Below, one piece after another: positions 28,952 through 50,337 of a DNA stretch of 50,740 nucleotides. How positions within the stretch are numbered: position 1 is the stretch's first letter; the number at the start of each line of letters is the position of its first letter. The DNA is from a virus: positions 1 to 50,740 of IMG/VR virus record IMGVR_UViG_3300010430_000069; one strand, 5' to 3'. The notes below the pieces were generated by a model, which saw only the letters and a program-made list of their open reading frames with translations, did not search any database and was not told the DNA's origin. The translations under genes were made by a program, and so were the position numbers.

Positions 28952-29775
28952 ATGATCACTATTATCACTTAGCTGATGGGATCCTTGAGTATGGCGAAGA
29001 CTCAGAGGACCGCACTGGTACCGGCACTCGCCGGCGATTTGGAACACGACTGTTTTACCTTGCCCGCCCAACAGAATTTCCTATTCTGACGACAAAGTAC
29101 ATCAGTTTTAAGGCGGTCTACGATGAGCTGAAGTGGTTCTATAGTGGAAGCACAAAAGTTTCAGACTTGCCGAAGCATATTCAGCACTGGTGGAAGCCAT
29201 TTGCCGACGAATCTGGCGATATTGGTCATTCCTATGGAAAGAACCTGCGTACTTTTCCGGACTACCAATATCCTGGCATCACCCACGACCAACTGGGTGG
29301 CGTTCTAAGGTCTCTGACCGAAAATACGACGAGCCGTCGTCACATCATGTCTACATGGAATCCAGGTAGTGTGCCCGACCTTACGCTACCGCCATGCCAT
29401 GGTTTGGTGATTCAGTTCTACGTTACAAAGTTTGGACAACTCAGGATGCAGACGTACCAGCGATCTGCTGATGTTTTCTTGGGTCTGCCAATTAACTTGA
29501 GTCACTATGCGTTGCTTCTCAACATGGTTGCTTTTTCTACTGGTTTGGATCCACATAGTATTGTCTATATCATAGGCGACACTCATATTTACAATGATCA
29601 CATTCCACTGATTACTGAGCAGCTGTCTCGGGAGCACTATGAGCCTCCAGGACTATTTATCAACGCCAAAAAGTATAACGACCCTCTCGAAACATTCCTG
29701 AACATTGAGTTCTCAGACCTAGAATTGGTCGGATATAAAAGTCACCCAAAAATTAAAGGAAACATGTCTGTATGA
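28942..29775 (+). CDS. thyA: Thymidylate synthase
   Basis: The 277-residue protein methylates dUMP to dTMP using methylene-tetrahydrofolate. It has EDRTGTGTRRRFG (phosphate-binding Arg), the active-site Cys152 in TLPPCHGLVIQFY, the RSADVFLGLPINLSHYALLL segment, and DTHIYNDH. The Asn in LGLPINL is the residue that distinguishes dUMP from dCMP enzymes, which favours true ThyA over dCMP hydroxymethylase. Length is close to the bacterial standard. It is part of the dNTP supply block with the reductase and kinase. Confidence 0.92.
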   Translation: MSLDDHYYHLADGILEYGEDSEDRTGTGTRRRFGTRLFYLARPTEFPILTTKYISFKAVYDELKWFYSGSTKVSDLPKHIQHWWKPFADESGDIGHSYGKNLRTFPDYQYPGITHDQLGGVLRSLTENTTSRRHIMSTWNPGSVPDLTLPPCHGLVIQFYVTKFGQLRMQTYQRSADVFLGLPINLSHYALLLNMVAFSTGLDPHSIVYIIGDTHIYNDHIPLITEQLSREHYEPPGLFINAKKYNDPLETFLNIEFSDLELVGYKSHPKIKGNMSV

Positions 29776-31031
29776 AAACGTCATTGACCAACGAGAATTA
29801 TTGCTGCGAGATCATTGAACTGCCGGTTATTGAGACCGTCGAAGGCTTCGATAATCTGGGAGCAGTTTATCTCTATGGATACACAGCATTAGTCCCAAAA
29901 ACGATGAATCCTGGCGAAAAATGCTTGTTTTTCACTGCAGAATCACAAATTTCAGAGAAATTTTGTCACGAAAACAACCTGTTTCGAGACAACAATCTGA
30001 ACAAAAACACTGAGGAAAAGGGGTATTTTGAGCCTACTAGACGTGTTAAGGCCTTAAAAATGAAGGGGGTAATCTCATCTGCACTTATTTTGCCAGCGGA
30101 TTCTCTTCCAGAGGCTAAAGATCTTCCAATTGGAACGCGATTTAACTACATTTCTGGACATGAGCTAGTTAAAAAGTACCAAGTGCCTCAGAATTCGTCA
30201 GGTCTTGGAGGAAAATCCAGAAAAGGTAAGGGTACTAAAGTACTTCGAGCGACAACAGAGCATTTTCCAAAGCATTTCGACACCAGCAACTACCACAAAA
30301 ACAAGAAATTTTTGCCTGAGGTTGGCACCTACTATGTGAGCCAGAAACTGCATGGAACCTCCGCTAGATTCGGTAACGTAAAGGTGAGTAAAGCTGCCCG
30401 GATTCGAGACCGCATTGCCTCATTCTTTGGTGTTTCTGTTGAATCGAAAGAATACAAATTTATTGCTGGCAGTCGAAAGGTTGATTTCCTACCAAATATC
30501 GGAAAAGTACCAAAATGGCACTCCGATGAGTCTGGAAATGTTTGGGAGTACTGGCGTAAGAAACTCGTTGGTAAAATACCTAAGGACTTTATCGTTTACG
30601 GTGAGATTGTTGGGTACTATGGAAAAAAAGAGATCCAGGCGGGCTTTGATTACGGGTTCAAACCTGGTGAATCTGGATTTTTCGTCTATCGTGTAGTTCA
30701 TATTACAGACAACGGTCTCGCGATTGACTTATCTTGGGACCAAGTTACTCAGTTTTGCTCTCATAACGGACTGTCTATTGTGCCCACTATTACATGTCCG
30801 GAGGCAAACCTTGAATGGATTGAAATGTTCATGGATTCCCGTTCAGATACACGTTTGAATGATTACTATCCAGGATTTCTTCCCGTCAAAAAAGTTGACG
30901 AGGGTTTTTGCGTACGAGTTGATGGATACCCAGGGCCTCTTGTGTTAAAATACAAGTTTCCTAAGTTTTTAGCGTATGAAACCGGGCAACTAGATAAAGG
31001 GATAGTCGATATTGAATCACTCGAAGTGTAA
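29772..31031 (+). CDS. RNA ligase, DRB0094-like family
   Basis: The 419-residue protein has an N-terminal OB-like domain (about residues 10-130) and a nucleotidyltransferase core with motif I QKLHGTSARFG (Lys192 is the predicted AMP-accepting lysine). Later motifs include DFIVYGEIVGYYG (motif III/IIIa type), GFFVYRV, and VDEGFCVRVDGYPG with VLKYK near the C-terminus (motifs IV and V). Known DRB0094-type ligases seal 3'-OH/5'-phosphate nicks with an RNA 3'-OH strand. It could repair host tRNAs or help process the phage's unusual tRNA-like genes; both are inference. Confidence 0.85.
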   Translation: MKTSLTNENYCCEIIELPVIETVEGFDNLGAVYLYGYTALVPKTMNPGEKCLFFTAESQISEKFCHENNLFRDNNLNKNTEEKGYFEPTRRVKALKMKGVISSALILPADSLPEAKDLPIGTRFNYISGHELVKKYQVPQNSSGLGGKSRKGKGTKVLRATTEHFPKHFDTSNYHKNKKFLPEVGTYYVSQKLHGTSARFGNVKVSKAARIRDRIASFFGVSVESKEYKFIAGSRKVDFLPNIGKVPKWHSDESGNVWEYWRKKLVGKIPKDFIVYGEIVGYYGKKEIQAGFDYGFKPGESGFFVYRVVHITDNGLAIDLSWDQVTQFCSHNGLSIVPTITCPEANLEWIEMFMDSRSDTRLNDYYPGFLPVKKVDEGFCVRVDGYPGPLVLKYKFPKFLAYETGQLDKGIVDIESLEV

Positions 31032-49211: not shown

Positions 49212-49311
49212 TTAAAATGCTCCCATCGCATAGCCGACGACAGGAGCGGATAGATTAAAAGTCTATTTGTTTTCCCTCGCAATTGTACAACGTTTAACCG
49301 TAAGGTTTAGT

Positions 49312-49402
49312 CTGACAGGGTTTCGTCTTAGCCTTTGGACAACCTCCCAGGATATTGTTTGCCCCGAGCTGGGAGGGCCGGACTCGAACCGGCATAAAAC
49401 CC
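49312..49402 (-). tRNA. Circularly permuted tRNA-like gene (3' half before 5' half), unit B
   Basis: Minus strand order: 49402-49369 holds G38, GGTTT, variable TAT, T arm GCCGG-TTCGAGT-CCGGC, 3' acceptor CCTCCCA and discriminator G. A 19-base linker follows. Then 49349-49312 holds 5' acceptor TGGGAGG, TT, D arm GTCC-AAAGGCTAA-GAC, G26, AAACC, and loop CTGTCAG. Acceptor pairs 7/7 and anticodon stem 5/5 only in permuted order. T33 and anticodon GTC (Asp) are readable in the 5' half if the join is near 37/38; T1-A72 with G73 is otherwise a Gln-type end. So identity is open. Confidence 0.75.
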
Positions 49403-49481
49403 GCATAAAGGTCCCACGGAATCGATTACAATCGCAATTCGTTGTCTAAGTCTCAAGCAATAACCTAAGACTAAATTGTCC

Positions 49482-49556
49482 TCCTGCCTCCTCGGCCACT
49501 GGGATACCTCCCGTTAAAAGTCGGGAGGGTTGGATTCGAACCAACGTCTAACAGGG
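49482..49556 (-). tRNA. Circularly permuted tRNA-like gene, unit C
   Basis: Minus strand order: 49556-49521 holds CCTGT, variable TAGAC, T arm GTTGG-TTCGAAT-CCAAC, 3' acceptor CCTCCCG and discriminator A. A 7-base linker follows. Then 49513-49482 holds 5' acceptor CGGGAGG, TA, D arm TCC-CAGTGGCCGA-GGA, G26 and GCAGG. Acceptor pairs 7/7; anticodon stem GCAGG/CCTGT pairs 5/5 with one G-T; A14, G15-C48, G18G19 and A21 are in place. The anticodon cannot be read, because neither flank gives a T33. C1-G72 with A73 recalls proline tRNAs. Confidence 0.72.
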
Positions 49557-49602
49557 TGGACGGTTCAAGCTGAGCTTACTACTAAGCCTGTTTGCTTGTA
49601 TC

Positions 49603-50337
49603 CTATTCGCCCCACAGGTAGTCAAAGACTGCCTCTGAAACGTGTTGTTCTTGTACGTCCAGGCTGTTGGCCTGTTCGCGAGCTTTCTTCACTGCCTCAA
49701 CCAGTTTGGTCAGTCGAGCCTGGATCTCACGCTTCTCAGCCGGCGACAATGCCGCGGCAAAGTTAACGCTCTTCCAGTAACCAACCAGGACATCCTCATT
49801 GTAGGCCTGAACCTGTGCTGGATGTTTGTCGGTTGCTTCGTAGAGTACTTGCACCTTTGGTACTTTCTTGCTACGAATGGTTTCCACAGGAGCTGACACG
49901 TACAGTTCCTGGTTGCTGTCCCAGGTCCAGTCTACGGAATCGCTGAGCTCTGGGAGCTTGTCAACGAAGGTACGTAGGTTGACCAATTGCTTCTCCAGGA
50001 AAAGCAGGTAGGTGACCGGGGCATCTGCAATCACAGTCTTACCGTCTATCTCGACATCAGCCGTTGCAGTTTGATTTCCCCATTCCTGGGTAGCTACCAC
50101 GTCAAAGTAGTCTTGCAGTGGAGCCTGAGCAGACGTCAGGATGTCCCGTACGCGACTCACGACTTTCTTGTTTTCTGCCGGCAGGCGATCACCCTCGTCA
50201 TCTTTCGGAGTGTACGTTCGACTCAAACCAACGAAGTTGTCGGTTCGCTGTGATGCATGATGAAGTTCGGTCAGGGTCTTCTCGGCACGAGTTTTCTTGC
50301 CTTTGAGGACAGCCAGGACTTGGTTAAGTTTTCCCAT
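49603..50337 (-). CDS. Conserved phage protein (DUF7873-like)
   Basis: The 244-residue protein matches a family I recall as DUF7873, common in actinobacterial phages. Matching segments are KLNQVLAVLKGKKTRAEKTL, ELHHASQRTDNFVGLSRTY, VTYLLFLEKQLVNLRTFVDK, WTWDSNQELYVSAP, EATDKHPAQVQAYNEDVLVG and YWKSVNFAAALSP. Function is unknown; the long helical C-terminus (RLTKLVEAVKKAREQANSLD) suggests assembly or binding. It lies directly upstream of the permuted tRNA-like genes on the same strand. Confidence 0.78.
   Translation of the reverse strand: MGKLNQVLAVLKGKKTRAEKTLTELHHASQRTDNFVGLSRTYTPKDDEGDRLPAENKKVVSRVRDILTSAQAPLQDYFDVVATQEWGNQTATADVEIDGKTVIADAPVTYLLFLEKQLVNLRTFVDKLPELSDSVDWTWDSNQELYVSAPVETIRSKKVPKVQVLYEATDKHPAQVQAYNEDVLVGYWKSVNFAAALSPAEKREIQARLTKLVEAVKKAREQANSLDVQEQHVSEAVFDYLWGE

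Follow-up and report, generated by a model that had tools for sequence, protein, structure and literature searches.

What is encoded on the minus strand at positions 49556-49312 of the IMG/VR virus record IMGVR_UViG_3300010430_000069, a stretch of 50,740 nucleotides (nt; 50.7 kb) of viral DNA that was analysed whole and is called here the window? A reading made from the sequence alone had seen there two tandem, circularly permuted tRNA-like genes, whose products would have to be joined and freed of a linker to become tRNAs. The comparisons described below lead us to a different answer: the region, which is adjacent to a gene of the DUF7873 family, very probably specifies Y-RNA-like tRNA mimics with a new partner gene, and not split tRNA genes. 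Bacterial Y RNAs are known as partners of Ro60, whose place seems here to be taken by DUF7873. As far as comparative analysis goes, we show the predicted fold of these RNAs, its conservation, its coupling to DUF7873 and its likeness to Ro60-linked Y RNAs.

Direct reading confirmed two tandem minus-strand units in permuted order, the T arm and the 3′ acceptor strand preceding the 5′ acceptor strand and the D arm, together with the acceptor and anticodon-stem pairing first assigned to them. Unit 1 runs CCTGT-TAGAC-GTTGG TTCGAAT CCAAC-CCTCCCG, ACTTTTAA, CGGGAGG-TATCCCAGTGGCCGAGGAG-GCAGG, and forms 7/7 acceptor pairs and 5/5 pairs (one of them G-T) in an anticodon-like stem, with a variable loop of 5 nt. 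Unit 2 runs GGTTT-TAT-GCCGG TTCGAGT CCGGC-CCTCCCA, a 20-nt linker, TGGGAGG-TTGTCCAAAGGCTAAGACG-AAACC, again with 7/7 and 5/5 pairs, and has a variable loop of 3 or 4 nt depending on the register; its anticodon-like helix can be read alternatively as AAACCC/GGGTTT. The interval originally marked, 49312-49556, does contain both permuted heads, but the real element is longer, ca. 49600-49273, as delimited by matches to the covariance models R1 and R2 presented below. The features of the locus are as follows.

49603..50337, minus strand: DUF7873 gene (244 amino acids), proposed partner protein, directly upstream of the RNA (Pfam PF25283, 318.7 bits)
49436..49600, minus strand: unit 1, whole putative Y-RNA-like RNA (unit C of the sequence-only reading), from covariance model R2
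49551..49555, minus strand: unit 1, 3′ strand of the anticodon-like stem, CCTGT, pairing with 49483-49487 (5/5, one G-T)
49529..49545, minus strand: unit 1, T arm GTTGG TTCGAAT CCAAC, from sequence
49522..49528, minus strand: unit 1, 3′ acceptor strand CCTCCCG, pairing 7/7 with 49507-49513
49514..49521, minus strand: unit 1, acceptor hairpin loop ACTTTTAA (118/200 relatives have a 6-8-nt loop here)
49507..49513, minus strand: unit 1, 5′ acceptor strand CGGGAGG, from pairing
49488..49506, minus strand: unit 1, D-arm region with G18-G19
49483..49487, minus strand: unit 1, 5′ strand of the anticodon-like stem, GCAGG
49273..49443, minus strand: unit 2, whole putative Y-RNA-like RNA (the former unit B), including its outer stem and, on the 3′ side, the conserved loop GGTTAAACGTTG, from model R1
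49397..49401, minus strand: unit 2, 3′ strand of the anticodon-like stem, GGTTT, pairing 5/5 with 49319-49323
49377..49393, minus strand: unit 2, T arm GCCGG TTCGAGT CCGGC, from sequence
49370..49376, minus strand: unit 2, 3′ acceptor strand CCTCCCA, pairing 7/7 with 49343-49349
49350..49369, minus strand: unit 2, acceptor hairpin loop of 20 nt
49343..49349, minus strand: unit 2, 5′ acceptor strand TGGGAGG
49324..49342, minus strand: unit 2, D-arm region with G18-G19 and A14
49319..49323, minus strand: unit 2, 5′ strand of the anticodon-like stem, AAACC

Tandem normal tRNA genes were rejected at this step: the acceptor halves fail to pair in normal order, with C-A at 1-72 and GCAGG unpaired with GGTTT, as had been claimed, and ARAGORN called no tRNA in the window. 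An Rfam scan of the window found no family at or above its cut-off, and a scan for promoters and terminators gave no signal exceeding chance.

A permuted-unit detector, applied to DUF7873 loci from phages and bacteria, found permuted units immediately after the gene at 66 of 71 phage and 77 of 80 bacterial loci, mostly as tandem pairs ca. 140-180 nt apart. Because the detector demands pairing, its counts alone are biased, and we therefore used a test based on T arms only, with swapped partners. For this, within a set of 140 non-duplicate DUF7873 loci of phages and bacteria, 226 T arms from 130 loci were chosen by their T-arm sequence in the 460 bases after DUF7873, and the acceptor partner had to lie within 40 nt. 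A perfect 7/7 permuted acceptor accompanied 88.5% of these T arms vs 5.3% when partners were swapped between loci, and 301 further T arms from these loci, serving as a control, had one in 5.0% of cases. The corresponding values for the anticodon-like stem were 69% vs 22.7%. Judging from these comparisons, the permuted arrangement is no accident. Pairing is kept while the sequences differ freely, and this therefore constitutes compensatory evidence.

The second units were alignable (43 sequences) and gave a consensus of 36 pairs, 33 of which had changed on both sides. In this consensus 95.9% of cells pair, and covariation was 0.616 vs 0.218 in shuffles (0/500 reached the observed value), dropping to 0.10-0.14 when the alignment was slid. 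Beyond the T arm, acceptor and D arm, three covarying outer helices join both flanks, and their conserved internal loops read AUCGACC (5′ side) and CUUAAACG (3′ side); a base stem joining the 5′ and 3′ ends, with a conserved internal loop, is present both as consensus helices 1-3 and in minimum free energy folds. First units have conserved flanks of their own, GCUGAAACUGA on the 5′ side and AGAUUAUCGCUCCAGACUCAG on the 3′ side. Covariance models of the second (R1) and first (R2) units, built without the window, recovered both of its units at full length: R1 matched unit 2 at 49443-49273 (56.6 bits, E=4.6e-13) and R2 matched unit 1 at 49600-49436 (70.7 bits, E=2.7e-14), the E-values being rough, from short calibrations. 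The sequence-only reading had itself proposed compensatory change in relatives as a test, and its pairs held in the T-arm test and in the unit 2 consensus while the sequences varied.

These data also bear on whether the units are simply degraded or recombined tandem tRNA genes, as the tRNA-rich phage region, the further odd tRNA-like pieces downstream, and the ability of tandem normal tRNAs to mimic weak matches to the bacterial Y RNA YrlA might suggest. Compensatory change in so many of the consensus pairs and conservation across phyla speak against it, and the swapped-partner test together with the covariation of unit 2 refutes it, so that we give this origin practically no chance.

A more elaborate alternative is that of circularly permuted tRNA genes of the type found in algae and archaea, which would involve joining at the anticodon, RNase P together with a 3′ nuclease to open the acceptor, and decoding of codons. 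It would fit the full acceptor, T and D arms in permuted order, the N-CCA encoded in 55 of 200 units (27%), the downstream window unit, which would read C-T-G-T-C-A with G73 (Asp-like), and the presence in the window of an RNA ligase (29772-31031, plus strand; PF09414, 47.9 bits). Nevertheless, 73% of units lack CCA, the ligase occurs in just 13 of 30 DUF7873 phage records and was not found in the complete Gordonia phage GodonK, and T occupies the U33 position in only 28 of the 138 units having a 5/5 anticodon-like stem (20%). Moreover, the outer stems are conserved and covarying, with large internal loops, no bulge-helix-bulge motif appears in the consensus, and the same heads are found in Ro60-linked Y RNAs. 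Because U33 is unconserved, the flanks lie in conserved helices and the head is a hallmark of Y RNAs, we consider a tRNA dependent on splicing to be the wrong reading and very unlikely. What stands of the earlier proposal is a real tandem, permuted tRNA-like order; that these are tRNA genes does not agree with U33, the outer stems and the Y RNA heads, and the supposed need for joining and linker removal finds no support in the flanks, which pair into long conserved outer stems with internal loops and show no splice motif in the consensus. A permuted group I intron as joining device, which would explain the exon order, was also rejected, as the units lie too close together to leave room for its core and Rfam finds none.

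The acceptor loops of DUF7873-linked units are mostly short, of 6-8 nt (118/200), and C follows N73 in 90% of units. This C, or N-CCA, after the acceptor may be left over from a tRNA ancestor or may indicate that the loop is opened in some units; some Ro60-linked units have the feature too (acceptor loop ACCACAC). Many phage second units (such as those of loci L035, L040 and L083) have acceptor loops of ca. 30 nt holding a small hairpin (GTGTC...GACAC).

If the heads are those of Y RNAs, are they simply Ro60 Y RNAs? The base stem of YrlA is described as holding Rsr/Ro60, and its tRNA-like domain as able to bind PNPase and as a DusA and TruB substrate (PMC8394870); the crystal structure 6CU1 of a bacterial Y RNA superposes on tRNA with a circular permutation (PMC11472068). 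The Rfam model of YrlA (RF02553) matches unit 2 over its full length at 23.5 bits under relaxed limits, the cut-off being 69; taken alone this was rejected as proof, since adjacent normal tRNAs of GodonK can reach 25.7 bits. The best match to R1 outside DUF7873 genomes (genome G087, locus L184) was a tandem permuted pair ca. 0.9 kb from a TROVE/Ro60 gene, whose units obtain 41.2 and 31 bits with the YrlA model, also under 69. Because this Ro60-linked actinobacterial unit falls below the cut-off as well, the Rfam score does not decide, and the model probably misses the actinobacterial Ro60-linked branch. Permuted units adjoin TROVE in 9 of 14 actinobacterial TROVE loci, with tandem examples at L184 and among L172-L182. 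A survey by Chen et al. in 2014 reportedly found Y RNAs close to Ro60 in over 250 species of bacteria and phages, and some of the Ro60-linked units seen here may be among them. Rhizobium phage RHph_TM21B (L186) combines the two systems: one unit is linked to DUF7873, and a permuted pair apart from it immediately precedes the TROVE gene.

The RNAs could thus be classical Y RNAs that serve a host or phage Ro60, DUF7873 being a linked but independent gene. The shared permuted architecture would agree with this, as would the TROVE genes present in 5 of 48 DUF7873 phage records and the Ro60 gene found, away from the RNA, in 12 of 20 bacterial DUF7873 genomes. However, no Ro60 gene lies beside these RNAs, 8 of the 20 bacterial genomes had no TROVE match, and TROVE is also absent from the window, from a 105.6-kb contig with an identical locus and from the complete GodonK; furthermore, Ro60-linked units carry different conserved stems, and the RNA follows DUF7873, not TROVE. 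We therefore regard this explanation as improbable.

DUF7873 is present in phages of Gordonia, Arthrobacter, Rhodococcus, Rhizobium, Vibrio, Klebsiella/Serratia and cyanobacteria. It was also found in no fewer than 63 IMG/VR contigs and in hundreds of bacterial records, the best being mostly from Streptomyces, Nocardia, Actinomadura and relatives, with Chloroflexi too. The locus was first described as a phage feature; it does occur in phages but is not specific to them, the same arrangement being found in Streptomyces, Nocardia, Chloroflexi and others. In named phages, the region after DUF7873 is in most records an unannotated gap of ca. 400-700 bases. Among 119 Actinomycetota genomes, only two have DUF7873, and only these two gave strong full-length matches to R1 (134-148 bits) and R2 (135-142 bits), beside the gene; all other matches were of 52 bits or less and nearly all partial. 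By these matches the RNA tracks DUF7873; two positive genomes are few, yet consistent with the 143 of 151 loci. In bacterial loci no other neighbour gene is conserved, and the top neighbour clusters were rejected as reading frames that overlap DUF7873 or the RNA or run antisense to them. An alignment-based structure model of the protein was confident (mean predicted local distance difference test score, pLDDT, 91.8; predicted template modelling score, pTM, 0.75), and yielded neither a PDB match at E<0.001 nor a convincing viral structural match; searches found no relative in PHROG, NCBIfam or the PADLOC defence library, and no paper in the literature searched mentions DUF7873.

We propose that the region downstream of DUF7873 makes one or two putative noncoding RNAs, each with the architecture of a bacterial Y RNA. 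Its long base stem, interrupted by a conserved asymmetric internal loop, would carry a head resembling the body of a tRNA, formed by the T arm, an acceptor helix closed by a hairpin loop and the D arm, with the RNA ends exiting through the anticodon stem. From the linkage of gene and RNA we infer that DUF7873 binds these RNAs, presumably at the base stem, in the manner of Ro60 in its own particles. The head would in turn recruit or occupy proteins that recognise the tRNA elbow or acceptor stem, such as modification enzymes, RNase P and PNPase-type nucleases, and DUF7873 would thereby be part of a tethered RNA-handling particle; neither splicing nor decoding would be involved. More broadly, and with less assurance than we attach to the Y-RNA-like nature of the units, we think it reasonably likely that DUF7873 and its tandem RNAs are a second Y ribonucleoprotein system, in which a protein of new fold replaces Ro60, spread across phages and several bacterial phyla and handling or shielding tRNA-like RNA in infection or stress.

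Several points weigh against this proposal. With the YrlA model, GodonK reaches 38.2 bits and locus L003 28.1 bits, like the window under the cut-off; DUF7873 is not Ro60-like by sequence or fold; Ro60 could still be the binder in the 12 bacterial genomes that have it; and a closed hairpin has no need of an encoded N-CCA.

As to function alone, a competing and rather less likely possibility is that the Y-like RNAs are tRNA decoys soaking up enzymes that cut or modify tRNA (in phages, nucleases of the host that attack the anticodon or acceptor), while DUF7873 would carry or protect the RNAs. The head retains elbow and acceptor and has no anticodon loop, as a decoy would, and the cassette is patchy in bacteria (2/119 genomes) and frequent in tRNA-rich phages; in addition, Hughes et al. 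suggest, as one possibility, that YrlA might inhibit an anticodon nuclease competitively (PMC7790460). Against a decoy stand the lack of a PADLOC match for DUF7873 and of a conserved neighbour gene.

The permuted tRNA-like head was already known, whereas the family linked to DUF7873 appears, with respect to the literature searched and Rfam, to be new, as do its breadth and its independence from Ro60. If a DUF7873-linked Y-like system is confirmed, tether RNAs with a tRNA-like head originated, or changed partner, more than once, and DUF7873, with its hundreds of bacterial genomes and many phages, gains a first testable role. An unannotated noncoding RNA would be added to phages GodonK, Phendrix, Mimi, Racecar, Fryberger, RHph_TM21B, Vibrio D505 and Klebsiella KpLz-2_45, several of them amenable to laboratory culture, and any "permuted tRNA gene" reported from a phage or bacterium ought to be checked as a Y RNA first.

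Three other tRNA-like elements lie downstream of the units on the minus strand. At 49211-49146 there is a normal-order tRNA-like gene (Rfam tRNA, 46.4 bits), not called by ARAGORN, which is without an anticodon because its anticodon loop has just 2-4 nt (CCTCAATTGAGG). An odd element at 49143-49033 has a 7/7 acceptor (CAGGTAG/CTACCTG), a T arm GTAGG TGAAACT CCTAC and several extra arms, and at 49267-49219 a Lys-like anticodon arm (ATAGA CTTTTAA TCTAT) adjoins a hairpin, with no recognisable D arm.

Among known systems, YrlA (RF02553, 6CU1; partner Ro60/Rsr) shares with the window family a base stem, a conserved internal loop, a permuted module, a closing helix like an anticodon stem, and frequent tandem copies beside a protein gene; the window family differs in scoring below the Rfam cut-off, in its other conserved stem and loop sequences and in being linked to DUF7873 instead of Ro60. 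The actinobacterial Ro60-linked pairs (L184, L182) also consist of permuted units in tandem, whose short acceptor loops include ACCACAC and TTCGG, but they are adjacent to TROVE, have other conserved stems and carry a flank motif, CAGGACCTACTTCCACT, not seen in the DUF7873 family. Permuted two-piece transfer-messenger RNA (RF04321) likewise has a permuted tRNA-like domain with a linker in the acceptor region, although only GodonK gave a match, weak and local (19.3 bits vs a cut-off of 47), with the tag part unmatched. Finally, the permuted tRNA genes of red and green algae and archaea have in common with these units that the 3′ half precedes the 5′ half, whereas the consensus of the window family shows no splice motif, conserved U33 or anticodon, and has instead long conserved outer stems.
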